Shown piece after piece: positions 4,335 through 53,500 of a stretch of 64,000 nt of DNA (the stretch's first letter is position 1; each line of letters opens with the position of its first letter). The stretch spans positions 1 through 64,000 of the IMG/VR virus record IMGVR_UViG_3300042557_001040; one strand, given 5' to 3'. The position numbers were made by a program, and so were the translations under genes. The notes beneath the pieces were generated by a model, which saw only the letters and a program-made list of their open reading frames with translations, was not told where the DNA came from and searched no databases. The stretch comes from a virus.

Positions 4335-4619
4335 ATGGGAAAGAAAAAAAAAGAGACACTTAATATGATTGTAGAAACAATCACTAGAAAACAAAAAGAA
4401 AATCTTTATAAAGACTTAGCTGTTATTAGACACTTGATAGATAAATCCATTTCTCATATTGGAAATATTGATACTGCTGATAATTTAGCTGAAGCTTCTT
4501 TTAAAGCAGGTAGAGCATATGATCCATTAGATGAAGCTATGGATAAATTAGTTGACATATTAGACAAAATGAGAGAAGATAATGATTTTGATCATTTTGA
4601 AGATCTTATTGAAGAATAA
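4335..4619 (+). CDS. Hypothetical helical protein, 94 aa
   Basis: It has a Lys-rich N-terminus (MGKKKKETLN), a helical middle and a strongly acidic C-terminus (DNDFDHFEDLIEE). That acidic tail recalls those that recruit proteins in phage replication complexes, but this is only an analogy. No known domain is seen. Confidence 0.6.
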   Translation: MGKKKKETLNMIVETITRKQKENLYKDLAVIRHLIDKSISHIGNIDTADNLAEASFKAGRAYDPLDEAMDKLVDILDKMREDNDFDHFEDLIEE

Positions 4620-4639
4620 ACAATTTAAATTTAAAAACA

Positions 4640-4885
4640 ATGAGTAAAGCTAAAAGAATTGTTCTGGGAGAAGGAGAAATCATAGGACACAAACACATTC
4701 TAGAGTCTAAGACAGACATAGAATATTCTCAAAATGCAGATAGCATTACATTTATGCTTAATTCTATGGGTATTCTCACCCATGATGAGCATGATAAAAT
4801 GGTATTTAACAAGGGTAATTACAAATCGTACAATCAGGTGGAATACAACCCATTTGATAAAACAGTACAAAGAGTGTTTGACTAA
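4640..4885 (+). CDS. Conserved small phage protein with GHxH and LTHxEH motifs, 81 aa
   Basis: Residues 13-19 contain the GHKH motif, residues of about 46-51 read LTHDEH, and the end carries GNYKSYNQVEYNPF followed by QRVFD. The order (GHxH, a strand, LTHxEH, G.Y, QxEYdPF, RVxD) is a pattern I remember from short proteins in many tailed phages, with no assigned function. The paired His motifs suggest a metal site. The TAA stop overlaps the next ATG (TAATG), so it is translationally coupled to the helicase. Confidence 0.65.
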   Translation: MSKAKRIVLGEGEIIGHKHILESKTDIEYSQNADSITFMLNSMGILTHDEHDKMVFNKGNYKSYNQVEYNPFDKTVQRVFD

Positions 4886-17778: not shown

Positions 17779-18408
17779 TTAATTGTACACTCTTATTTCT
17801 AAAGATGCATTTAATAAAGAACTATCTACTAAGTTGTCTTGTCTTGTTGCATATAACGGTTTACTAAACTGGTTATTATTATTAAAATAAGTCACTAATA
17901 CATCTTCTCTACCACTTGTTCCACTTACTATAACAATAAATGTTTTATCTGTAGTGAACAATTCAGAAGAATTAACTGAATACTGTCCAACATTATCATA
18001 AGTAAACCAAATATTTCCAATAGTATTTTCTAACACTGTTGCTACTGGGGCTCCTCCATTAAATTCTAGAATTCCAGTGTCCCAATTATTAGGAGTTGTT
18101 CCTGTAGCAACAAAATATGTTCCCACATTATTATTTGGTGCTCCTACATTTGTAAAATCAGCTATAGCACTATTGTTATTATAAATAAAATAAGTAACTC
18201 CTATTGTTAAATCTCCACCAGAAATACTACCTAGACTATTTCCACCATTCTGTGTTAATAAAGCTGTATATACTTTATATGTAGATGACGAATTATTATT
18301 AATCTGGTCTACCAGCTGATTTACATGTGCTATACGAGCTAATGCGTTATCTCCCACTGTTTTACTTAAGTAGGGATCAGGACTTTTGGGTTTAATTTTT
18401 TTTATCAT
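17779..18408 (-). CDS. Virion/tail protein of unknown function, 209 aa
   Basis: The N-terminal segment GDNALARIAHVNQLVDQIN is a short helical motif I remember from tail-region proteins of Bacteroidota phages. The rest is beta-rich and Asn/Gly/Ser/Thr-rich (YKVYTALLTQNGGNS, then TIGVTYFIYNNN), like a fibre or adhesin. The start overlaps the stop of the M15 peptidase by ATGA, so the two are translationally coupled. Confidence 0.65.
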   Translation of the reverse strand: MIKKIKPKSPDPYLSKTVGDNALARIAHVNQLVDQINNNSSSTYKVYTALLTQNGGNSLGSISGGDLTIGVTYFIYNNNSAIADFTNVGAPNNNVGTYFVATGTTPNNWDTGILEFNGGAPVATVLENTIGNIWFTYDNVGQYSVNSSELFTTDKTFIVIVSGTSGREDVLVTYFNNNNQFSKPLYATRQDNLVDSSLLNASLEIRVYN

Positions 18409-18827
18409 ATTTTTGCAAGTTGAAAGTGCATACCATCTCTACGTCTCCATGTACCACCCCATTCAAATCCTGCGTCTGTAAAACACTTTACAAACCCAGG
18501 GGAAAGTCTTGGTCTACAACCAAAGCAGTTCCATGCTGCATTTACATCAACAGCTATACCCCAGCTGTGGAGACTCATTGTAAGACCAAATCTCTTCCTG
18601 CGAATGTTAAAACAACCATCCCATGTCTTCAGCTCTTTTACAAAACCTCTTGTAATAAGATTTTGTAATGCTGCACTGAGAGGTTTAATTAAGTCTTTAT
18701 TACAGAATATTCTTTTAGGAATGACTCCCACTTCTAAATTAGCAGGGACATCCCATGTAGTCATCCACCTATTCTTAAGTGAAGGAGCACCGTATTTCTT
18801 ATATGCTTGCTTACTGGTTACCATCAT
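18405..18827 (-). CDS. M15-family peptidoglycan peptidase (endolysin)
   Basis: The 140-residue protein is a D-Ala-D-Ala carboxypeptidase / L-Ala-D-Glu endopeptidase type M15 enzyme. The zinc-site motif SLHSWGIAVDVN supplies His87 and Asp94. The terminal DGMHFQ supplies His134. Glu122 (FEWGG) is the probable catalytic acid region. It cleaves peptide bonds in cell-wall stem peptides. There is no signal peptide, so release needs a holin (candidate at 10842). Two Met codons (18827, 18824) are possible starts. It overlaps both neighbours by 4 nt, within a lysis cassette that continues upstream. Confidence 0.88.
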   Translation of the reverse strand: MMVTSKQAYKKYGAPSLKNRWMTTWDVPANLEVGVIPKRIFCNKDLIKPLSAALQNLITRGFVKELKTWDGCFNIRRKRFGLTMSLHSWGIAVDVNAAWNCFGCRPRLSPGFVKCFTDAGFEWGGTWRRRDGMHFQLAKI

Positions 18828-19248: not shown

Positions 19249-19629
19249 TTAGTAATTGTATCTATTTTTTAAGAAGCTATCTGCTTGATCTACAGAAAAT
19301 CTTTTAGAAGCATCAATTTTATCATTGTAATATTCTCTTACAATAACCTTTGTCTTCTTTATATCTTTAATCTTCAGATCAATATCATTAATCCTGTTAT
19401 TATACTCTTGTGTAACACTATCTAATGTATTCTGTTTCTTTACAAGCTCTTGATTCACCAGATTAAGACTATCAATTCTTTGCTTAATCACTTCATTATC
19501 AACACGTTTCTCTCTTTTAGTGAAAATAAACAGAAGTAGATATATAACAAGCAACACCCCAGCAACCACGCCTAATATGGTGAGCAGATTGCTTTTAGGT
19601 TTAGGAAAGTAAATATTTGGTGTTTCCAT
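19249..19629 (-). CDS. Inner-membrane spanin-like protein, 126 aa
   Basis: One N-terminal membrane helix (residues of about 14-36, LLTILGVVAGVLLVIYLLLF) is followed by a positively charged stop-transfer (KREKR). A coiled coil of about 70 residues (IDSLNLVNQELVKKQNTLDS and on) and a tail RFSVDQADSFLKNRYNY follow. This is the classic i-spanin layout. It lies directly upstream of the other lysis proteins, with a 2-nt gap. Confidence 0.65.
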   Translation of the reverse strand: METPNIYFPKPKSNLLTILGVVAGVLLVIYLLLFIFTKREKRVDNEVIKQRIDSLNLVNQELVKKQNTLDSVTQEYNNRINDIDLKIKDIKKTKVIVREYYNDKIDASKRFSVDQADSFLKNRYNY

Positions 19630-19816: not shown

Positions 19817-20119
19817 TTAACTTATTTTAGGGACATATTTCTTTACATCATATATATCCTCATGTTTAAAGTATAGTTTATCCATATCTGGATTAACATA
19901 AGTGATTTTTCTAGGAGCAGAAGGCCCATAAAGCATCCTTTCTAGGTTTTCTATCTTGGTTTTGTCTATACTAGACTGAGATAATAGTGCCTTTACATCT
20001 GACCTAAGCTCAGATACATCTCGCCATATCATCATGGCAAGTATGGTTACAAGGGTTGGAAACAAATACGCCTTAATAGACGTAAGAATGGCAGAGTTTT
20101 TTTCGAATTCTCTTGTCAT
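19817..20119 (-). CDS. Membrane-anchored coiled-coil protein, 100 aa
   Basis: One hydrophobic helix spans residues of about 12-32 (SIKAYLFPTLVTILAMMIW). A short coiled coil (VSELRSDVKALLSQ) and a soluble tail follow. It is the first gene of the 20.1-to-10.7 kb minus-strand block. Its place at the head of a lysis cassette suggests a holin-regulator or spanin-related role, but the family is unknown to me. Confidence 0.6.
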   Translation of the reverse strand: MTREFEKNSAILTSIKAYLFPTLVTILAMMIWRDVSELRSDVKALLSQSSIDKTKIENLERMLYGPSAPRKITYVNPDMDKLYFKHEDIYDVKKYVPKIS

Positions 20120-20160
20120 TTCAAAACCAATTTTATACCTTTACAAACATTTTTTTCAAC
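20120..20160 (-). promoter_or_regulatory. Possible promoter for the minus-strand lysis/tail block
   Basis: On the minus strand, a TTG and the sequence TAAAATTG (one mismatch to TAnnTTTG) are separated by 21 nt. They lie just upstream of the start at 20119. The fit to the Bacteroidota consensus is partial. Confidence 0.3.
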
Positions 20161-20166
20161 AAAAGA

Positions 20167-20284
20167 CTGCTTAACCGAGCTAAAGTCCTGATTTACAATG
20201 AGTTATATTGCAGCATCAAGAATAAATGCAGGTTAATTAGAACTTCTTAACCCAGGACTTGTAAGAGTATAGCTCGGTTAGCAG
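20167..20284. other. Structured intergenic element (nested inverted repeat; origin or ncRNA candidate)
   Basis: Outer stem: CTGC(T)TAACCGAGCTA at 20167-20182 pairs with TAGCTCGGTTAGCAG at 20270-20284, giving 15 bp with one bulged T. Inner stem: AAGTCCTG at 20183-20190 pairs with CAGGACTT at 20253-20260 (8 bp), with 9 unpaired nt on the right side between the stems. Inside lie three smaller hairpins: CAAT/ATTG (20196-20210), GCAT/ATGC (20213-20229) and GGTTAA/TTAACC (20231-20252). The whole resembles a cloverleaf on a long stem. No U-tract follows, so it is not a simple terminator. It lies between divergent blocks, 71 bp from a DnaA-domain-IV-like gene. Confidence 0.75.
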
Positions 20285-20355
20285 GTTCTATTCTACAATA
20301 TAATATACTAAATTTTTGACAAACCTCCATCTATAATCCTTAAATTTTATCAATT

Positions 20356-20760
20356 ATGACCCTCAATCAAGAAGAAGTGTTGGCAGTTGAAGACTTTAAA
20401 CGGGACTTCAGTGCAAAATTTGGGTATGTCCCACTAATAACTATAGAAAAAACACCAGAAAAAGTAATGCCTTTAAGTGAGCTTGAAGAATTTTTTAAGC
20501 CTTTTATTGCCAGAAAGTATGATAAAAAGATCACACTAAGCTCCAATCTTAGAGATAGAGAGCTTGTTGAGTATAAGATTATTTATTCCATGATGGCAAA
20601 AGAACTAGGATACACCCTCACAGCAATAGCAAAACATCTTAAAAAAGATCACACAACAATCGTTCATTATAATAAGACTTTTAGAAATCTTATGGCAACA
20701 TCAGACTTATTTAATGAAAAGTATAACGAAGTGGTTGTTTATATAAAATCATCTAAATGA
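20356..20760 (+). CDS. DnaA domain IV-like DNA-binding protein (replication initiation candidate)
   Basis: Residues of about 65-112 match the C-terminal DNA-binding domain of DnaA: REL..YK...SMMAKELGYTLTAIAKHLKKDHTTIVH, with the signature DHTTIVH at 98-104 where DnaA has DHTTVLH. DnaA's AAA+ domain is absent, and the N-terminal 60 residues are unassigned. It therefore binds DNA but does not form a DnaA ATPase filament itself. It could mark a phage origin or bind host DnaA boxes. It opens the replication block, next to the structured element at 20167-20284, and overlaps the next gene (ATGATG). Confidence 0.82.
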   Translation: MTLNQEEVLAVEDFKRDFSAKFGYVPLITIEKTPEKVMPLSELEEFFKPFIARKYDKKITLSSNLRDRELVEYKIIYSMMAKELGYTLTAIAKHLKKDHTTIVHYNKTFRNLMATSDLFNEKYNEVVVYIKSSK

Positions 20761-21727: not shown

Positions 21728-22777
21728 ATGTCTATAGGAATTAAACATCTTTTTGGAGGTAAATTGTATTCTGAAATACTTTCAGAAGGCTTAGTGTATA
21801 TAGAAGACAGGATGAGAGGTAGAGTTAAGTCTTTTAAAACTCCTTGGGTGGGGTTGAACAAGGCTGGCGTAGGAGGATTGGAATGGGGTTCAATGATAAC
21901 CATAGGTGCAAGACCTGGGTCAGGTAAGACATTGATTGTCAGCCAAATACTCAGGGAATGCAGAACACTCAATCCTTTACAACACTTTAACATCCTTGAA
22001 TTTCAGTTTGAGATGGGTGCAAAGCAGGTTTCAGCTAGAGATTTTGTAGCTAAAACTGCACTTGATTATAACACTGTTTTAAGTACGGATGGACAGCTTG
22101 ATGATTATCATTTTCAAATGATGAAGCAATATCAAGAAGACTGTAAAAATCTTGAACAAAGAGGTGTTCTAAGAGTGCAAGTAAATAATGCTCTCACCCA
22201 TCAAGAGATAAGAGAAACAATTATTCATTATTACAAGGAGCTTGGTGGTAAGCCTCTGGTTGTCACTGTGGACCATAGCTGGCTCATCAAGAAGGGAAAA
22301 GATGAAAAAGAAAAAATAAGCACTCTATACAATGCTGTAGAAATGTTTATGCAGCTTAAAAATCAGCTCCCCATCATTGTGATTATGATTACACAGCTTA
22401 ACAGAACTATTGAAGAACCTTCTAGAAGAGTGCAAGGCTCTATAGCAAACTATCCCACCAGCTCAGATATATTTGGTGGTGATGCTTTGATGCAAGGTTC
22501 TGACATGGTTGTGGTTTTAAGCAGACCTTCTATATTAAATATAGGAGTGTATGGTCCAAGTGGCTATCTTGTAAAGTCAGATGATATCTTTATGCACCTG
22601 ATCAAGGTGAGAAATGGTGCAGACGATGTAAACATTCTTTACATGAAAGCTGAGTTTAAAAACCAAAGAATGATAGAAGTTTCTGAACCCACTGCCTCTA
22701 ATCCTGGAGGTATGGGATTCACCAGAAGATCACAACGAACCACTACATCTACAGACATAGATGTTAGTGATATTTAA
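21728..22777 (+). CDS. DnaB-type (SF4) replicative helicase
   Basis: The 349-residue protein has the RecA-like core of DnaB helicases: Walker A GARPGSGKT (60-68), the H1a segment FEMGAKQVSAR (about 94-104), H2 VTVDHSWLI (179-187), H3 ITQLNR (221-226), and SDIFGGDALMQGSD near 246-259. The DnaB N-terminal domain is missing, as in other short phage DnaB-like helicases. It would unwind the fork ahead of the family-B polymerase, working with the primase at 24775. The C-terminal 40 residues are Ser/Thr-rich and probably flexible. Confidence 0.9.
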   Translation: MSIGIKHLFGGKLYSEILSEGLVYIEDRMRGRVKSFKTPWVGLNKAGVGGLEWGSMITIGARPGSGKTLIVSQILRECRTLNPLQHFNILEFQFEMGAKQVSARDFVAKTALDYNTVLSTDGQLDDYHFQMMKQYQEDCKNLEQRGVLRVQVNNALTHQEIRETIIHYYKELGGKPLVVTVDHSWLIKKGKDEKEKISTLYNAVEMFMQLKNQLPIIVIMITQLNRTIEEPSRRVQGSIANYPTSSDIFGGDALMQGSDMVVVLSRPSILNIGVYGPSGYLVKSDDIFMHLIKVRNGADDVNILYMKAEFKNQRMIEVSEPTASNPGGMGFTRRSQRTTTSTDIDVSDI

Positions 22778-38580: not shown

Positions 38581-41500
38581 TTAGGGTTGTGCGCATCTAT
38601 CATTTAAAGGATTATCATCATCTAATTTTGTATCATCTGATTTGATACTACCAAATCCCATCAATCTTTCAAACTCTTTTCTTTTTTCCATATCCGTTAT
38701 GCCAAGTTTTTCTTCTTTTGACCCAACTGCTGGTACATTTTTACTAGCTTGAGATGGTTTTTCATTATCACCCATTCCTAATGCTGCAAGAAATCTATTT
38801 CTTAAAGCGGTATCCGTAACACCTAATTCTTTAGCTTTTTCTTCAGTAAGGTTTTCATCAACAATAGGCGTTTCTCCTAATGTTTCATTTCCTTTTATTT
38901 GAGGAGCTGATGATGTAATGTCATATCCTAACATATAAACTAATTGTCCTGGGGTTTTTACAGTTTTTTTCGCATCATCTGGTATAGCATCCCAGACATC
39001 ACCTACAAATTTAAAGGATTTACTAGCGGTATCAAAAGTAAAAGTAATGCCTTCTCTAGCGAGTATTTCTTTTGGCGTACCAGTCACATTTTTAGTAGCA
39101 GCGGTTGCTATTTCTTTTTTTTGTGTAACAGATGTTTCTCCTGGTTTAACAAATCCTCTGTTAATCATCCACATCTCCTCTTTTTCAGGATCGCTAAAAG
39201 CTCTTTCATAATAAGGATTATAAGAAGAAGGATTGGTTGTAAGCTTTCTATATCTAGGAAGTTTAGCAGTATCAGGAATTGGGTCAAAAACCTCTCCTGC
39301 CTTAAAAGTTTTTGAAGAACCCTTTCTTTCTATTTTTTGGTATACAGCTTTTACACCAGAAGCAACAGTTTCCCCAGGTTGAATCATTCTTTTAGGGGAA
39401 CCTTTAGGTTGTTTTTGTGCTTTAGTAACCGATTTAAGAACAAAGAAAGTGTTTTCAAAATATTTTTTTCCTTCTGGTTTTATACTTTGTTTTATAATAT
39501 ATGGAAAAACAACCTCACCTTTTTTATTAGTATAAAAACCTTTAGCCCTTAAAGAATCCATATTTTTAGCAAATCTTTTCTTTTCATCAGGTGAATACTT
39601 AAAACTATCTGCCTTGGCTTTAGCTGCCTCTTCTTCTTTTTTAATCCATTCTTTTTTTCCTTCTTCATCTAATTGAGAAAACTTTTCAGTTTCTTCAGCC
39701 AACATGGTATAATAATCAGCATCATCCATCCATGTTATTTCAGATTCTTCTTCTTCAGTGAAAGCCTTTTGTTTTTCTTTTATACGAGCACCATTGAAAA
39801 TATCAATTTTTATTTTATCACCGTCTATTACAACAGATTTGGGTTCAAAGCCATCTACATTTTTATTTCCTACATCTTTGAACTTAGGTTCAGCAAATAG
39901 AGTCATACTTCTAACATAATATCCATTTCCAACATGCCTTGTATATATATGCATAAATTCATTAAACAAATCATTAGCTGTTAACCCAAATACTTTTTTA
40001 TACTCTTCATCTATATTTTTTGTTGTGACCATGTTTAATTTCAAAACATCATTAGCTATTCCTGTACTTTGCATCAAATCTGTAAACATAAAGTTAGGAA
40101 TAAACTTAATAAAACTATTACTTCTAAACTGACCACCATCTTTTACCAACAGATAATTAAAAAGAGCATTAGCCATGTCTCTACCGTTTCTACCATTGCC
40201 ATCAAAATCAATATCAGATTGATAGATTTCTATAAAACTATCTCTTAATTTTTCTATTTGATATTCATTAAGTTTAGCCCAAGTGTTAGATTCTAGTTTA
40301 TTAAATCCATCTTTATTTTTAGGATTGAGTCCAGCCTCTCCTTTAGCATTAACTATGGTGGTAGATATTACATTTAAAAATCTTTTGGCAATATAGTTAT
40401 TTGGAAGTTTTTGTCTAATCGTTCTAATAACATCCACTATATCAGAAAACTTGTCTCCTTTTGCTATAGCACCTTCATCATATATAAGGGCATTGGTCAT
40501 TGTAGATAAAGTTCCTGCTCGCCCTCTATCAGCAAGAAATTTTCTATATGCTTTTATAGAAAGATAAGAAATCAAATCTCTTTTCAAATCTACATTAAAT
40601 TTATCTTTAAGAGATGCTCTTACACTCAAGTTATCTTTTACAATATTTTCAATACGCTTAAACACACTTGTTCTTTCCAAGAACATGCTTTTGCTGAGAT
40701 CATTAATTTGATCAGCTATTTTAATCCATTTAGAAATATAGTGAGATTGTTTAGATTCATCATAACCCATGAATACTTGACGTAAATCAAATGGTGGAGG
40801 AGTTTTTCTACCTTCAGGTATAAATTTCTCAAAAGCATCATCATTTTGATTTCTTAAACCCAGTTTTTCTATTTTGTTATTAATACCATCATAGTCTTCC
40901 CAAGATGTACCAAGTCCTTTAACAAGCTTAAGTACTTGAGCAACATCAGAAAAGTATTTAGTTTGATTTGATATCCCTATAAAATCTTCTAATACAGAAG
41001 CCTGATATATAGCACTACTCCCATTATTTTTAATATTGGATACCATTATATCATCTGTAAGATCTTCTTTTACATAGTCATCTCCAGCTAATTTCTTATA
41101 TTTTTCAAAAAGTTTTTTAGCCACTTGAGACTTGTATATTTTACTTTCCTCATTTGTTTTAATATTATTTGAAGCTATTTTGGTTAGTTCAAAATACTCT
41201 CTTACAGCAGGTTGTAACATTAAAAGAATAGAAGATTTTAAAGGAACACCTTGAGCTACCATATTAGAAACATAACCAAGAGCCTCCATGTTAAGACCAA
41301 GTCTAGCAGCCAAACGTTCTTTAGCATTATCTGTCATAGCTGATACTAAAGTAGATATAATGTTTGTTATACGATCTTCACCATCATATTTACCAGTGGC
41401 TGCATTATAACTATTAGAATGTGAATAACTATCAAATGTGTGACCATTTATTTTAATCTTATACATTTTAACCTTCTTGCCCTTAGCATCTTTAAAAGTG

Positions 41501-44500
41501 TCTCTAAGGTTAATCTTAAAGTTATTCAGTATGGCATAAGTAAGCATTGAGTTAACAGCCGCACCAATGTTTCTAGAACCTTCTTTATTATTTTTAAAAG
41601 CTTTGTATTTACCTATAATAGAATCAACATCAACTCCTCCTTCTGTAAGAATATTTTCTATTTCTGTTGGTAATACTTTTTGTCCATTTTCATTTTCTGT
41701 AGATAATAAATCAATAAGATTACCAGCTACATTTGGATCTAATAAATTGGTAAGAGCAGTTAAGGACGCAACTTCAAATGCTATAGATCTGCTTCCACCT
41801 GAAATAACATGTTCATTAGTAAGCATCAATAACTTCTGCTCTAAAATTCTATTATTAAGAACACCATTATTAAGTTCTTTTTTACTTTTGGCATAATCTA
41901 AAACATTAGATGGAAGTTTTAAAGACCCAAGGGCCTGAGCTATAAGTTTTTGTTCTACACCGTCTAACTTTTTTACTAAATCTTTAAATTCATTTACCCA
42001 TTTTTTACCCATATCAATAATAGCTTGACGTTCGTCCGCTGTTATTTTTCCACCAAGTTCTTCACTAAAATAAACACTTTCAAATATTCTAAACTCATCT
42101 AAATCTTTTGTAAGTTTTTTATACTCTTTATATTTTTTAGATAGTTCTTGATATATAGGATTTGTTTCTTTTAATTCTTGAAGAACATCTCTAAATGCCT
42201 TGTTATTATTTGCATTCCAGCGTACATATTCTTCAAATTTTCCTTCTTTAGAAGTTTCTGTTCCATAAGGAAAACGTTGACCATCTTTTACATATGTATC
42301 ATATATGTGCATATACAGTTTATCAATATCAAAGTCAGCACCAGATATTTCTATGAGTTCATGGGGAAAGATAGCAGTGGAACCATAATATGCTGGCATA
42401 AATCCAACAAGTCTAAGGGCTACAAAGCTATGTTTTGCCTGTGATGGGATACGTACACCAAACATTTTAGCTATGTGATCAGGAATAGGTTCACCTGGCT
42501 TTAAGTTAAAGTACTCAGCATAGTGAGCTGGCATAATAAACTCTGTATATCTACCTATAATTTTACCATTCTTATCATATTCTGGTACGTTATGTCTAAG
42601 ATCATCTACATAGATGTCTCCTTTTTTCATTTGCTCAAACTTGCGATCAATACTATTATTCCATCTTTTAGCATTCTTTATATATCTATTTGGATTTTGT
42701 TTAATAACTCTTTCATCTACCACTGTTCCAATAGGATTACCCTCTTCATCATAACGTCCAGTAAATATTTTAACTACTTGTTTACCGTAATTGGACATCA
42801 AGGCAACAGAGTGACCTGGAGTTTTTTCACTCATAACTCCTTTAGAAAAATAAGCTAAAAATAATTGAGTGTATTTGTCAAGAGTGATATTGTTGTTAAG
42901 ATTATATTTAGGTTTTCCATCTTCTCCTAAAGAAAAGAAATCAATAAGTTGACTATCTGCTCCTGTAGAACGTAATGTTTCTACAGCTCTTTTTTGAAAC
43001 TTTTGAAGCTGTGGACTTATTTTACCTTGGTCCATAGACTTTCCTAGCTCTGAATAAGCACTGTCTATATTAAAGATTTCATCTCTACTTCTTGTATAGT
43101 TATTTGTAACACGTTGGTCAACATCACTAAGATACATTTTTTTAATATCTCCAATTGTTAACTGACTACCATCTTCTTTAGTGCTTCTACCCATAAAAGT
43201 AACAGGAGTAGAATCTTCTTGTTCAGAAAGTATAATCTGTTTGGCCTGACTGGGATCTGTAATTTGTATTTTATTAGAAGGGTTAACCAACTGAAGTCTC
43301 CAATAATTTGTATCTTGCTTTACAAAATTTTCATCTTTAGCATTTTGAAATCCTAAACTATGATCAAATATATTTCTCTTAATACCCTTACTAGATTCTC
43401 TATCTCCAGCAAATACTACAGTATTATTATCTTTTTCAAACTTTTCCATTCTTTCCCTAAGTTCATGTAACTCTTCAGAACCAGGAATAGCTACCCACTT
43501 ACCATTTACTTTCATAGAAGTAAACTCTTTAGTAAGCATTACAGTGGATGTTTTAATATATTGAAGACCATCAAAATAAACAAGCTTTTTAGAGTTAAAC
43601 ATTGCTTCCATATCTTTTAACCCACCTGAACCAAAAATTTCTTTTTCAGTGAGTTCTTGACCAGCTTCTAACTTATCAAGAATTTTAGCAATTGCCGGTG
43701 TAAGTTGACCTAAACCATGAAGAGTATATCTCATACTCTTTACAGTTTGATAAGATTGGGCATCTGCTTTATTTTTTAAACCACCAGCATAGTTAGCTTT
43801 AAATTTAGGACTTGTAAAAGTAAGCATGTAACTTTTAGTAAATGCTTCTGTAATACCAAGTTCAGGAGATGTTACAACAGAATATAAACTGGGCCCACTA
43901 CCATTAGCACCTCTAGCACGTTTAATAATATCAATTTCATCTTTAAATGCTTTAGCCTCATCACCATACAGTATTTGATTAATAGATAATGTATTAATAT
44001 AATCATTTATTAATATCTGACCAAGATTATGTCTGAGATTTCCTGGTTTAATGTTTAACAAATCATTTCTTCTTTCATCTATAACATCCTTACCATTTTC
44101 TTTTTTAGTAAAGCCTATCCTTAAAAAATCATCAACAAGATTATTTTGAATTTCTTCTTCATTACCTTCTTCAGATTTACTTACTGTAACAACACCAAGG
44201 TCATTGGCAAGTTTAACAAAATCTTCAATTTGTTTTTCCCAATATTCTTTAATTCTACTATTTATCTTAGTATTTTTAGAAGCAATATCAAAAGCATCAT
44301 CTAAACTATCTTGTTCTAATTCATCAGCTAATTCTGTTCCTAGCATATTAGCCATCTTATAGAACTTTAAACCTCTTGGTTTTTTCTTATCTGTTCTTCT
44401 ACCATCACCATCTACAGCATAATGATAACCTTGTATTTCACCATCTGGATATATGCCTGATTTTATTTCAGCTCTTACTTTCTTAATACGATTAAACTCT

Positions 44501-47500
44501 CTAACTACTTCTTTATTAATAATATTAATAGCCTCTTGACTTAAACTAACCTTCCCACTTGTTGTAGAAGTAACCACCTTATTGACCGGTAAAGCAATTG
44601 TATCACCTGTATTAGAAGCTTCTATCACTCTAATAAGATGATTGCTAGTCATAAATCTATTTCCATTTTCACCCCTATGTTCCTTATTATATTGATACAA
44701 TTCTAATAAAGATATTAAAAACTCACGATCAGAAAAACTACCATAGGTGATACCTTCATTTTGATTAGCTTGAATTGTTTTATCTTCTATTAGTTCACCA
44801 GTCTCATTTTCTTTAAGAATTGAACTCTTCATTCCTTCAATTCTTTGCACTCTAAGATTTCCAAGAAGAGATTTAAAATCTTCTGAACTTAATAAATGAT
44901 TTTGCTCAAGAAAATCATCAAGCTTAATTTTATTTAATTCATCTATATCATTAAGAGAATTAATCTTGACTAAATGGAATGTAGGAAGCTGATGCGCATA
45001 CACTAATTCACCTTCAGCATTTCTATAGGATGTACCACTAACCGTTTCATCAAAAACAGCATTACCTTTAGCTAACTCATTAAGACGAGATATATTACCA
45101 CCCTCTCCTAAACTGTCTGCTTCTTCTTCACCATCTTCTTCTCCCGTAATGGGCATGTTTTCATCATTAAGGCTGTCTATATTTTTAGCAAAAGGATTTT
45201 CCAAAGCTTGTATAGACTTAACAATAGCTTTTAAACCATTTAAATCCATTGGTCCAACTTCACTATATGATTCAGCAAGTCTTCTTTGATTTTCAGTTCT
45301 GAGATCAGGTTGCTTAGATGCAGCTATAGAGAATTTAATATAAAGTGGAGATAAGGAAATACCCAAGTCTTCTTTAAGCCTATTGCTTAAATCTTGAGAA
45401 AGATCATCTAATCTTTCATCAGAAAAATATACACCAGGATCATGTGCGCTCAATAGTTCTTGAAATGATAAACTTTTTTCCTTAGCAAACTCTCTTCTTT
45501 CTTCTTCAGATTTAAGTGCTAAAACAGGAGTTTCAAACTGATGTATATAAGCATTCTGCCATTGTGTAAACTGAGTTTTAGCAGCACCCATTCTATTAGC
45601 CAACATTAATCTTGTAACCCTACCTTTATTACGAATATCTTTATTCATAAAAATATAATCCACGGTGTATTGTTGAAATCCTTTAACCACCATTTGAAAA
45701 AGAGTAGCTTGTTTAGGATTTGTAATATCAAAATCACCGGTATTTGGATCTATGACAAGACCAACTTCATCAAAGAATTTATTTAAAAACTTACCAGTTT
45801 CTGTATTATTGTCTCTTAAATAAAGCAGCCTATTTATAAATTTCTTTTGATCTGTAATATTAGCAACAGCCTTGAGAATACCACCATAAACCAAATTAGC
45901 ATTTACAGATTGTATTAGTGGTTCCCCATTTACCATTTCTGTATTTCCAAACTCATCCCTATCTATTACATAAGATGTAGATGCTATGTACTGACGTAAG
46001 AATTTAGAAAGACTACCAAATCCTCCAATAGAATGAGTTTCTTTCCAATTATCTGTAGTAACTCTAGTACCAAATTCTTCTTCTGTAGTAGTAAACTCAT
46101 CATCTTCAAGCTCCTGTTGATATCCCATTATATTTAAATGAACATCTACAGCCTCCATCAAAGTTTCCCTATTCTCTTTACGATAGAATATATTAAACTT
46201 TTGATCTAATTTATTCATATAGGCTTTAGCTTGGGCAGGATCTATATCCATCAGCTTTGTCTGTTCATCATAATAAAACTCTTTTCTAGAACCTCTAGGG
46301 TTATATAATTCTAAAAAGTCATCTATAATACCATTAAGAATTTCTTTTTTATTATACTTTCCAGTTTCAGTATTAAGTGCTCTAACATGAAACATTGAAG
46401 CTATCGTACTAGCTATCTGATCTCCTTCTTGCTGAGGAAGGTATTTGTCTATTGGTATAATATCTCCATTTTCATCATCTACATAATCTTCACCTATTTT
46501 AATAGCTTTTAATGCAGGTTCATTAATACTAAGAGCATCTGGCTTGGTAAACCTATTATCTTTGATATTAGAATTTTTATACTTACCTCTGTCTATCTCA
46601 CGGAATAAACCAGTAAGTTCATTACTTGTAAATTTTCCAAACAGTCCCTTTATGAAATCCCAAATCTTTTGAAATAAACCACGAATACCTGGAAGAATTT
46701 TTTTAGAGTCTTGATTCATTTTCCATTCATCAAACTTATCAGCCATATATTCCTCATAGTATCTATTTTCTAGCTCAGCATCTGTCATGTCCGCATAAAT
46801 AGTATGAAGCTCTCGCATTGCTTTAATTTCTGAAGCAAGTGTTTTACCTTCTTTGGCAAGTTCTTTTTTCACTTCAAGTTTTGCATATGCCAAAAACTTA
46901 TTTATTTCTTTATCAGTGAGCATTAAACGAAAAACAGCATGAAAAGCCTCATGGTATTTAAATGGACTATTCTCACCAACTTCAATACGTCCTCTCACTT
47001 GAGTTTTACCATTCTGAAGTTTTTGTAAGTAAGTTAAGAATCTACCTACAGTGATATTACCATTTTTAAGATTAGTAGCAAGTAAGTCCATATCTTCTAC
47101 AGATACAATATCACCAAGGATACGACCTACATACTTTTTAAACTGATCAATATTAACCACACTAGTGGCATCAAAGGTTGGCTTATTTACCACCTTGGGA
47201 GCCATGTTTCTATTTGAATTTCTAAGTTCATTTAGTTTAGCTTTTTCAGCGTTAATTCTATCTTTAAATAAATCAACAGCTTCATCATTAGATAATCTTA
47301 AAGCTTCACCGGATCTCATTCCAGCCTTTACTTTTTCTTCCAGTATTTTTTGAGCCTCTATTTCTCTTTCAGCCTCAAGCTTTTTTATATTATCTCTTAT
47401 TTGTTGAGCAGGGGATAATCCTGTTTCTTCAAGTTTAGTTTTTTCAACAGGAGTTTCTTCTTTTTCTTGTACAGAGGGGCTTGCCCCAATTCCCATTTCT

Positions 47501-50500
47501 TTTAAAAACCTAGCTCTTAAATTTTCATCTATTGGTACCCCAGCATTATTTTGCATAGACTGAGCAGGTGCTGGCGCCACACCTTTCGTTTGTACACCTG
47601 TTTTAATATCAGGTGCAGGAAGACTAAAACTTGCTTTAACAGAAAGAGGTATATTCTTAACCATCTTTTCTGATAAATTAGTTTTTAATTTTTTAATATC
47701 ATCATATCCACTAACATCTGGAGTACCTTGTCTAAAGTTTTCTCTAGTTAATTTAAACCCTATAGCGTCTCTTTGATCAATAACAGCTTTATCATGCTCT
47801 TCTATACGTGAATTTATTTTAGATATCAAATCATCAATATCTTTTATGTTTACAGGATCAGTGAGTTTACTGCCATATAAACGTATTTTTCTACGTTTAA
47901 TTTCTTTACCCTCAAACATATTGTAAAAAGTCAATTCCAAATTGCCAGTATCACTTACACTAAAATCAATATACATACCTTTCTTTTCGATTGGTACAGA
48001 TATAAATAAATTAGCAGCTAATTCAGAGTTAAGCTTTTCATTAAAATCTACCTTTTTACGCTGATAAACTATTTCTTTTTTATCAGTGAGAGTTTCTTGT
48101 AAGTTCTTTTCTTTTGTCTCTTTGGCACGCTCATTAATTTGTTTAATAAAATCATTAAATTTTTCTTCTTCTAAAACATCTGTATTAAGTTCTACAAATC
48201 TAATTCTACCATTATCCATTTTAATAACGGCTACATATCTACCAAGTTGCTGAGTGGCATCTCTTTCATTTTTAACTTGTTTTACTTCTTCTTCTATTTT
48301 TCTTCTATCAGCACCAAAGGCGTTTGTTATAACATTTTCAGTGTTACTAAATGTATATCCAGACCCATAGCGTTTAGCGCGATCTAAAATATAATAAAAA
48401 CCATTAATTGTTTTATTGGGAAGATCTTCAAAAGAAACACCTGTTCCTTTAGGTACAAAATCAAATTCACCTGCACCAATTTCAAATGAAAGTATTTTAT
48501 CCAGTTGTTCTTTAGAAATTTCAATCTCTTGGCCTGGTTTTGCTAAAGAACTTAAAGCAACATATACTTTTTTAGAATTTTCAAATGAATTTTTAAAATC
48601 AAGCATTTGTTTTTCAATACCTCTACCTTTCAAATCAAATATACTTCTAAATTGATTTTTTGTAAGATCACTCATTGGTACGTTTACACCACCATTAGTG
48701 ATATATCTAAGAGTATCATAATTTCTTAAATATCCAATAGGTTCTCCTTTGTATACTATTTGAATTTGATATTTTTCAGAGTACTGTATAAGATTTGGAT
48801 TGGTTTTTTTATCTTTTCCTCCTGCTTCCTTTGAAGAAGCTATAGTTGTATTTTGTTTTATTCTAATAGTAGTGTTTGCTTTAATATCATTAGCATTAGT
48901 TTTCTTTAAGAAGTCGTCCATTCTTGCTTGAGCTTCTGCTTCTGTTTCCCCTTGTTTTCTATGAGGATAAATTCCACTGAGTTCATTGGTTCTATAAAGT
49001 CTAAACACATCTTTATCCACTGGTTCACCAGTGTCATATTTTTCTACTTTTTCTTTTATGGTGTAATTACTAAAATCTTTTTGACTTACAATTACAGCAT
49101 CACCATACTGTCTTACTCTATTTCTAAGAAGAAGTAATTTAATAAGAGGATTATTTTTTTCTTCATCAGCTTTGGCATAAAAAGGTCCACCTTTTGTATC
49201 AACTACAAATTGTTTTCCTGTTCTATTATCTACTAATATAAGACCGGCTCTTATTTCTGTACCTGCAAAAGGATAGTAAGAGCGATCTTTTTTAAAGTCA
49301 GCAGTATCTTTAGCAATAATGGCATCTCTAGCAGCCAAGGCTTGTTCTTTAGTAGAGTAGGTTAAAGCAACTGTTTCTTCATTTCTTTCAGACTTTGCTA
49401 CTTCATATTCTCCATTACTACTAATAATAAATAATCCATCTTTACCACTGTCTACTAACACTTCTCCTTTTTTCAATGTAGGAGGGGTAAGTTTTCTTTT
49501 TTTAGAAGGCAATTCTAATATGTCATGATTATCTTTTCCCGTAGGAGTTTTTTCTTTTTTTAAAGCAGCTAGTTCTGTTTCAATTTCTCTTGCAATTTTA
49601 TCCTGAGCATCTAATACTTCACCTGCAGGTAATTTAGAAGCATCTGTCCATTTATTTATTAAACTTAATAAATTTTTAGGAACATATTTATCAACTAAGT
49701 CCTGAACATCTTTTTCACTTGGATATTCTAATGTGGGTTTATATGTACCATCTGGTTGTTTTTCTCCCCATAATGTAGGTTTGTTTGAGTTTCTACTCCA
49801 AGTTAAAAGAAAGTCTTTTTTCTCTCCCCTCACCTCAATGTAAAATTGAGTTTCTTGTTCTGCAAACTTTGCCTCAATTATTCTATCAGTTTTAGCAGCA
49901 TCTGTAGGCTTAGCTCCTTCTAAAGCTGTTAGTTCTGCGTCAACATTTTTAGAATCAATTTCTCTTTGAATTTTATCAGAAAGTATTTGACTATAAGATT
50001 TGCTCTTACCATCTATAATTTCATCTTTACCATAAGATGATTCTAATATTTTATCACCATAAAAAAATTTAGCCACCTGTAAAGCAAGTTTAGCATCAGC
50101 TTCTGAATATCCATGCATTACAACTTGATCACTTAATGCAGGACCTTGAACTTCAAGATCTTGAAAAATTTTAACTCCTCCGTTATATCCTCTTTTTTGA
50201 AGCTCAATCATAAAATCTTTAAACATTTCTGGAGAAAAGTCATTAAGATTTTTTAAAGAGAAATAACTTTTATGTGTTACAGATTCTTTATCATTTGTTC
50301 CATTATTAATAGAAAAAAATAACCAAGAATTAGAATCTTTAGTTCCTGATAAAAGTCTAACATTCTTTGCAAGATATCTTTCTATTTGCGGCTTATTTAC
50401 AAGAGATAACATTGCATTATAAAAACTTTCAAATGCATCTTTTGCAGTTTGTGATAAAGACGCTCTATCAGCTTTAACCATATCTAGTACTTCTTGTACA

Positions 50501-53500
50501 GATGTTGCATTTCTATGTTTAGGATTTGCTCTTAATTGAGAATCATCTATTTTTAAATAGTTTTTAATAGCATAGTCAGCATACTCTTCTCTAGACATTT
50601 TAGATAAATCTACACCTTCTGCTTTGGCAATTTTAGCTAACTCATAAGATGCACTCCAACCGAATAGTTTTTTTCTTCTTTCTATATCAGCTTTAGCATC
50701 TGTAACAACAGGAGCTACATCAGGTTTTAATCTACCTTCTTTTATGTATTCATTAAACTGTTCTTTACTCCATACTCCTTTAGACTTATTTTTTGTATTT
50801 TCAAACTGGATATCTCCTTTCTCACTAAATCCTCTAATTACATAGTTTTGTCCAGAGTCAGAGGTAAATGTATCACCAACTTTTGGAGTTGTAGAAACAG
50901 GAGCTCCTTCTGTTGGGGTTACTGTAGGTTTTTCTGCAGTCTCATCTAATTTATCAGCAACAACTTTGGCCTCTTCTTCTGTAGCATACCCTTTGGCTAC
51001 AGTGGCCCCCGTAGGACTAACCACCGTAAATGTTTCATCTTCTTTTACTACAACATGCTTTTTTTCTTCCTTATCTACATCAGCAGCTTTATAAACTTCA
51101 TCAATATGATCTTTTTTAAATAATTCACTAACTTCTTTATGAGCAGAAATCATTGAATTAATTACCAAGTTCATATTATAAGGATCAGCAAGTAAATTTA
51201 CAGCATCTACATATGCTTTATTATCTTTATTAAGACGAATGTAATCTATGATGTTTATAAAGTTTGCATCTACATCTTCTTTAGATACAACAGCCTTATT
51301 CTTAGACCTTTCATTATAAAGATTTATAAGATCAGCATAGCTCTCATAAGCTCTTTTTTCAGCAGCAGGAGAATAAGACTCATCAGAATTATCAACTATA
51401 TCCTGGTAAGAGCTTTCCCATTTTTTTGCTAAGGCAAGTTCTTTTTTCTTTTGTTTTAATATTTCTTTTAAATCAGGAGTGAGCGTGTCCGTAGATTCAT
51501 AGTTTTTAATCTCTGCTTCAAGATTCTTTACATGATCATTAAGTGCTTCTTCACTGCCCATTTTAGTGAGCACTTCTAAACTTGAAGCACCAATATTTTT
51601 ATTTTTAGAAATCTCTGTTTGTAAAGAAGCAGCCCTTATAACAGCTTGTTTTGCTTTATGAACATTAGTAGCAAGTATCTCTATAGCATCTTCTAGTGCT
51701 TTCTTTGATATCTTTGCTTGCGCATATTCTTCAGGGGTATTATATTTATATAACTCAGGAAGCACCTTATCACCATACTTATCTTTTAAATTTTCATAAG
51801 TGGTGTAATATTCATCCATTTGATTTGCAATGTTTTCCATAAAGGATTTTACATTGCCTCTATTTTTTTCTGTAGCATCAATTCCATATGCATCTTTAAA
51901 TTCCTCATCTGTCATGTTAGAACCAGCTCTTTTAATAGTGTCTCTAACAGTTTCAAACATGTTTAATTTAATAGCACTACTTACAGTTTTTGCAAAAGCA
52001 GAATCCTTTGCATTATAAAAAACATATTTATTATGATTTTTAGCTGCCTCATCCATTGTCTCAGCAGCTTTATTATTTATCTTAACATTTGCAATCCACT
52101 CTTTTTTAAATTGTGTGGGATCTGCATATAGAGAATTAACAAGAGCAATGCTTTCCTTTGCTCTTTCTTTTCTTGTTAAATAATCAGGATCTTCTTTTTT
52201 CTTTCTACTCTCTTCTATAGACTGATTAACCTTACTAATAATTTTAGTGCCAGGAGATATTAATGCACCAGTTAACGCGCCCATTAAGAATGTTCGCATA
52301 CCTTCAGAGCTGGTAATAGGATTTTCTATACTGTCTATAATGCGTTGCATCTTTCCACTATGCCCCTGTTTACCATGATAAAGATCATAGTAATAGCCGC
52401 TTAAACCTTTATTTGAAGCATCCTGTATAAGTTCTTGAACACCTTCCAATCCTTCTATTCTGGTGAGCCCCTTTCCTAACATTTTAGTAGCTTCCCAACC
52501 TGCTTTTGTTTTTCCAAAATCTTGAGCAATACTTCTTACAGCACCTAATTCTCCAAAGAACCAGCTTTTTGAATATGCTTTAGTCAAATCTTTTCCTGCT
52601 ACCTTACCTGTCACTTGGAATGCTTCCTCTGCAAGGGGTGCCGCTGCTTCATTAAAAATGTTTCTAGTGCGACTAAAACTTTTGAACATGTTATTAAACT
52701 GTAATCTATTCATTACAGAAATAACACCTACGTTTGTCCAAAAATTGTCATGAGAGGCATCTTCTGCCTTTTTATTTATTTTTTCAAGGTCGTCTCCATC
52801 TGGATTTTTTCCATTGGCTTCTATATATTCATTTACAAGTTTATCTCTTAATTCTTTAAATGTACTAGCCGCTTCAAATATTGATTCAGAACGTGCCATG
52901 TTAAATTCACTAAGTGCACGTTTTACCCCACCTAGAGTAGTCATTGCTAATTGTCCATACCCTGCGCCAGCTTTACCAAGCTTATAAAGATCTTGAAATC
53001 CACTATATAAAGGAACAATAGTTCTAGCAGCATTATTGAATGCATTAGTGACTCTTGCAGAACTAGTTACAATTTCTGTAGCTTTGTTAACATCATTAAC
53101 AATTTCACCTAATGTTGTAGCAGTTTTTACACCTCTTGCAATATTTAATCCTTTTAAACCTGCACCAACTATATTTCCAAGACCTGCTGTAAGATATGTT
53201 TCTAAAGCAAATTGTGCCATGGCACCTACAGTAAATCCAGCTTGCTGAAACATATTACCAAAGAACTGACGATTAAAATATCCATCTTTAGACTCCGCTG
53301 TATCAAATATTGCATATTTATTAAAGATGTCTTCCTGTTCTTTAGCTATATCATATCTCTCTTCAGGGGTTCCCATTAGTTTGGTAGAATCCCATGTAGA
53401 CAAAGCTTGAGCCATTCTTGCCCATCCTTTCCATCCTTCAGCAAACGTGTTTACAGCAATTTCACCAAATCCACCAAGTGCTTTTCCAATAGTATCTCCC

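Follow-up and report, generated by a model that had tools for sequence, protein, structure and literature searches.

The inverted repeat at positions 20167–20284 of the window (the whole 64,000-nt stretch of DNA that was analysed, taken from a virus record of 88 kb) is a conserved structured RNA, for which we propose a new family. This minus-strand RNA is probably the 5′ leader of a lysis and tail operon and would act in cis on the expression of that operon. The fold, its covariation, its strand bias and its fixed place between a conserved sequence box and the first lysis gene are established. Judged from sequence, the box would be a promoter and the RNA an mRNA leader, a reading that comprises the start site, the strand and the read-through into the operon.

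Fold of the element

The element and its parts are as follows.

20167–20284, minus strand: structured RNA and probable leader, whole element; minus-strand RNA fold z −6.25, kept in five other phages
20270–20284, minus strand: P1 5′ arm (CTGCTAACCGAGCTA), partner of 20167–20182
20167–20182, minus strand: P1 3′ arm with a single bulged A (minus strand), from the traced pairs
20261–20269, minus strand: one-sided internal bulge at the P1/P2 boundary (UACUCUUAC), 9 nt here and about 7–14 nt in relatives
20253–20260, minus strand: P2 5′ arm (AAGUCCUG); both-side changes in 5 of the 8 P2 pairs
20183–20190, minus strand: P2 3′ arm (CAGGACUU), paired with 20253–20260
20231–20252, minus strand: P3 hairpin, GGUUAA-GAAGUUCUAA-UUAACC, with the highest conservation within the element; both-side changes in 2 of 6 stem pairs (six-member alignment)
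20213–20229, minus strand: P4 hairpin (GCAU/AUGC); both-side changes in 3 of 4 counted pairs
20194–20212, minus strand: P5 hairpin (UGCAAU/AUUGUA); both-side changes in 2 of 5 counted pairs

The initial annotation had described this architecture from the DNA, and most of its description is confirmed: the outer arms (20167–20182 with 20270–20284) pair with one bulged base, the inner arms (20183–20190 with 20253–20260) pair as described, and three hairpins (P3, P4 and P5) lie inside P2, including GGTTAA/TTAACC at 20231–20236/20247–20252. The proposed direct stacking of the outer on the inner stem is correct for the low-coordinate side, where the two are contiguous, but the opposite side carries the 9-nt bulge at 20261–20269.

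The inverted repeat is real and far beyond chance. When both strands were folded as RNA, as the initial annotation had suggested, each fell far below its dinucleotide shuffles and the minus strand was clearly better, with −46.9 kcal/mol (z −6.25, MFE structure identical to the centroid) against −39.7 kcal/mol (z −4.54) for the plus strand; on either strand, 0 of 200 shuffles were as good. The absence of a U-tract and the divergent orientation of the flanking genes were likewise borne out, and the U-run directly after the stem that marks an intrinsic terminator or attenuator was not found for the element. ARAGORN predicts no tRNA or tmRNA gene, and Rfam 15 gives no family at the gathering threshold in the whole window and none up to E 10 in 20120–20360, which rules out a tRNA, a tmRNA or a known Rfam family as the identity of the element.

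The fold has a strand preference in all carriers. In seven of seven phages, including a relative with a different core (L087, described below), the minus-strand fold beats the plus-strand fold, with minus-strand z-scores of −2.9 to −6.5, and in two of them the plus strand is not better than shuffles (z −1.06 in L083 and −0.50 in L089). The traced helices contain 216 Watson-Crick pairs, 10 minus-strand G-U pairs and a single plus-strand G-U pair, a count that leans somewhat to the minus strand because minus-strand folds served for the tracing; the fold energies are independent of it. A plus-strand RNA belonging to the operon of the DnaA-like gene is ruled out by the weaker plus folds in all seven phages, two of them not significant, and by the G-U bias. 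We infer that the minus strand encodes the RNA, whereas the DnaA-like gene is on the plus strand.

Conservation and covariation

With the helicase of the window (21728–22777) as query, 80 IMG/VR loci were retrieved. The best annotated relatives of this helicase and of that of locus L088 are crAss-like phages (Crassvirales). The divergent gene pair that flanks the element, i.e., the minus-strand gene at 19817–20119 and the DnaA-like gene, is kept in more than 50 of the 80 loci. The gap within the pair falls into size classes: about 120–140 nt, comprising just a promoter-like stretch, and about 380–410 nt, containing an additional small minus-strand gene, with three loci at about 870 nt. The nearest relative, L003, is alone in having a 233-nt gap, which holds the same element as the 236-nt gap of the window. 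A DNA pattern of hairpin P3 led to L083, and the helicase of L083 to L087–L090.

In total five other crAss-like contigs (L003, L083, L088, L089 and L090) carry the element at this gene junction, all of them with the long P1, the one-sided bulge, P2 and three hairpins. The carriers form two lineages, one comprising the window and L003 and the other L083, L088, L089 and L090, whose helicases are only 34–38% identical. Across this distance the sequence of P3 is retained, 22 of 22 positions being identical among the window, L003 and L083, and the stretch between P5 and P2 (UGUAAAUCAGG) is also conserved in sequence. P1 shows the opposite behaviour: its sequence is entirely different in each phage, and still 7–16 bp can be formed. 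A mobile unit with fixed terminal repeats is ruled out by these completely different arms.

In the MAFFT alignment of the core regions of the six members, which leaves P1 out, standard pairs occupy 97.8% of the core pair cells; as a control, shifting the pairing partners by 1–3 columns lowers the pairing to 29–48%. Covariation analysis in related phages, which the initial annotation had named as a check, reveals compensatory changes: both sides have changed in 12 of the 23 core pairs, compared with 3.8 in shuffles, and 0 of 500 shuffles reach this number, although with six clear members the covariation leans on few independent events. A covariance model of the six members finds exactly those six among 163 searched sources, with one clear copy in each carrier record and the next best hit at E > 2. 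Built solely from L083, L088, L089 and L090, a second model still recovers the window, with 74.0 bits (E 1.2e-14), and also L003, with 47.9 bits (E 2.3e-8); these E-values are rough, owing to a short calibration, though the margins are large. The searched phage records are fragments, and absence of the element applies to the sequence in each record.

No relative of the element was found among GenBank phages at the DNA level, and it was not seen in bacterial genomes at the pattern level. Three pattern hits in bacterial genomes (L095–L097) were taken as chance, as L095 and L097, both of which were read, are without arms; a further hit, L091, also lacks the arms and was treated likewise. A kissing interaction between P3 and P5 (AGUU/AACU), judged by eye, is possible in some members and impossible in L083 and L089, and is not claimed. 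A self-dimerising P3 loop was dropped, since it is not conserved.

The conserved box and the flanking genes

The element is flanked by the following features.

20293–20308, minus strand: putative late promoter box, 16 nt (minus GTATATTATATTGTAG; plus CTACAATATAATATAC), near-invariant at this junction in relatives
19817–20119, minus strand: first gene of the presumably led operon, 100 aa, holin-like by position only; one predicted hydrophobic segment with a charged region after it
19249–19629, minus strand: Rz-like spanin candidate; weak match to PHROG 739 (E 5.8e-4), strong N-terminal hydrophobic segment
18405–18827, minus strand: endolysin/peptidase-like gene with the motif SLHSWGIAVDVN, read from sequence
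20356–20760, plus strand: DnaA-domain-IV-like gene (Pfam Bac_DnaA_C), first in the divergent replication operon and outside the RNA unit

The box ends 8 nt from P1, on its upstream side. Taken together with its copies, the conserved box is minus GTATATTATATTRTA; near-exact copies occur at 86306 in the window's own record (G000), at 83496 and 108773 in G006, at 38881 in G003 and at 750 in G004. All five copies, read in context, lie between two minus-strand genes, 7–57 nt upstream of the start of a minus-strand gene. As every one of these copies is followed by a minus-strand gene, the box looks like a minus-strand promoter, of late type, with conservation and position as the grounds for a presumed promoter activity. 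Longer records of this crAss-like group hold two to three near-exact copies each; within the window the motif is not enriched. L087 and L088, whose helicases are 98% identical, match without interruption (84% DNA identity) from the box into the replication side. Their leaders differ, and so do large parts of the minus side, which ties the leader to the minus operon.

About 45 unstructured, A/U-rich nucleotides separate the fold from the start codon at 20119. The ribosome-binding region is not part of the fold, and this stretch shows no terminator. The product of 19817–20119 has no match in Pfam or PHROG; that of 18405–18827 we liken to M15-type peptidases (endolysin). Tail-type genes appear to follow downstream of the lysis cassette. 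Further along the window, the minus strand of 38581–53970 consists of a single 5129-aa ORF beside other giant ORFs, which we presume to be the giant virion proteins expected of crAss-like phages.

Variation at the same position in relatives

In L004, L011, L020, L036, L079 and others, with gaps of about 380–410 nt, a small extra minus-strand gene (MAKKFYAQKDALGFPIPGTMMS...) lies between the box and the holin-like gene. The presence of this gene in many relatives indicates that the slot varies, holding nothing, a small gene or a structured RNA; for the same reason an interpretation of the gaps of about 400 nt as larger RNAs was dropped.

Other structures occur at this position. In L087 (4230–4360) the long P1 is kept in place around a different core, with two hairpins and a long 5′ bulge (z −4.7), which could be another type of leader or the result of a core replacement. 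L102 (about 4520–4690) and L103 (about 4500–4690) have, at this junction, another long pairing (TATAGACGA...TCGTCTATA) that encloses an interior of a different kind, and this pairing may overlap a divergent host-type promoter. In short-gap relatives such as L016, L032 and L035, a simple hairpin is found directly below the box, e.g., TAGTGTGTATTT/AAATATACACTA in L016. The 5′-terminal hairpin of such simple leaders measures 7.4 bp compared with 5.5 bp in shuffles, with most single cases not significant, and a general rule of a 5′-terminal hairpin is no more than suggested.

Proposed role and alternative explanations

In the proposed mechanism, transcription would start at the late-type box, within a few nucleotides of P1, and the RNA would form the 5′ end of a long minus-strand operon that runs from 20119 to about 11189. 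P1 would clamp the extreme 5′ end and P2 would close a four-way junction with P3, P4 and P5, leaving the start of the holin-like gene in the single-stranded stretch behind the fold. Most likely, such a leader raises or times the expression of the lysis and late message in cis. A long P1 at the 5′ end would hinder 5′-end-dependent decay, and P3 with the junction may be a recognition site for a factor, be it RNA polymerase, a protein or a ligand; the conserved sequences of P3 and of the segment between P5 and P2 suggest a specific partner. The absence of the element from most relatives with this operon implies that the operon as such can do without it, and that it tunes rather than enables expression. 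Tentatively, and with rather less confidence, the element could belong to a new class of phage RNAs whose target is the machinery of transcription or of RNA decay. As a leader built around a four-way junction, and possibly put-like, it would either reprogram the polymerase or shield the lysis message of crAss-like phages, and phages would exchange it as a module at the fixed slot between late promoter and first lysis gene.

Several other explanations were weighed. One, a specific version of the leader reading, is that the nascent RNA binds the very RNA polymerase that transcribes it, so that the enzyme withstands pause sites and terminators along the 9 kb of the operon. In its favour, the element follows directly on a presumed promoter where a long operon begins, a placement that recalls putL in phage HK022 (PMC9378689); its fold leaves the ribosome-binding region free, P3 is conserved in sequence and the leader shows no terminator. 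However, put RNA is about 70 nt long with two stem-loops, a size and shape that the element, with about 118 nt and a four-way junction, does not share, and the same operon runs in sister phages without the element; we regard this version as rather unlikely. A separate small RNA acting in trans (e.g., as a sponge, a decoy or an anti-defence RNA), transcribed from the late promoter and released from the message by processing, would agree with the compact cloverleaf-like fold, the conserved P3, the patchy distribution and the different core in a close relative, but no terminator follows the fold and all carriers keep the element directly upstream of the same gene, which makes such an RNA unlikely. 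More improbable still is a classical riboswitch or attenuator of the lysis operon. A 5′ leader with a multi-hairpin junction and conserved sequence would be expected of it, but an Rfam match is absent even at E 10, and neither an alternative terminator nor a sequestered ribosome-binding region is seen.

An origin of replication, one of the suggestions of the initial annotation, or a cruciform bound by the DnaA-like or another replication protein, is very improbable. It would fit the adjoining replication genes, the long inverted arms and the likewise strong fold with DNA parameters (z −6.0). Yet the element is absent from more than 50 relatives that keep the flanking genes in order, an outcome that the initial annotation itself had named as a refutation. 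No DnaA box lies within 3 kb (none matching TTWTNCACA between 11281 and 23422), and the GC skew, also put forward as a check, switches only with gene strand and gives no support to an origin; a DNA cruciform would not give rise to the 10-to-1 strand preference of G-U pairs. The DnaA-like ORF does start at 20356, 71 bp away as noted at the outset, but the DnaA-domain-IV-like part is limited to residues 60–105, with a Bac_DnaA_C score of 27.9 bits (E 2.3e-6) that is below the curated cut-off of 31.5. The implied link between the element and this gene fails, because the RNA is assigned to the minus strand and would lead the divergent lysis operon. The supported suggestion of the initial annotation is that of a structured RNA or RNA-level regulator, for which the compensatory changes and the strand bias argue.

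Crassvirales are very abundant phages, and to our knowledge the timing of their late genes and of lysis is little understood. The covarying and so far uncatalogued RNA, together with the recurring box, offers a handle on this timing, as it predicts a late promoter, a start site within a few nucleotides and RNA control of the lysis operon.

Comparison with known leader RNAs

The 6S leader of phage lambda lies upstream of the S-R-Rz lysis genes, ends in the terminator tR′ and works with protein Q. The lambda late leader and the proposed leader are both untranslated and located between a late promoter (here presumed) and a lysis cassette, but the lambda leader has tR′ and Q whereas no terminator is seen for the element. 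The leader of Escherichia coli ompA is a 5′-terminal stem-loop that stabilises the mRNA. A long stem within a few nucleotides of the 5′ end, which is presumed here, is common to both; the four-way junction and the sequence-conserved P3 of the element, however, exceed what simple protection needs.

The putL and putR sites of HK022 encode the nascent antitermination RNAs of a lambdoid phage and resemble the element as phage-encoded structured RNAs at a long operon, putL being immediately downstream of its promoter (PMC9378689) and the element next to a box that is a presumed promoter. The put RNAs serve early operons (PMC9378689), whereas the element, with its P1-bulge-P2 arrangement and three hairpins, is placed at a lysis and tail operon. 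If modification of the polymerase were true of the element as well, it would extend antitermination by RNA alone beyond the lambdoid phages.
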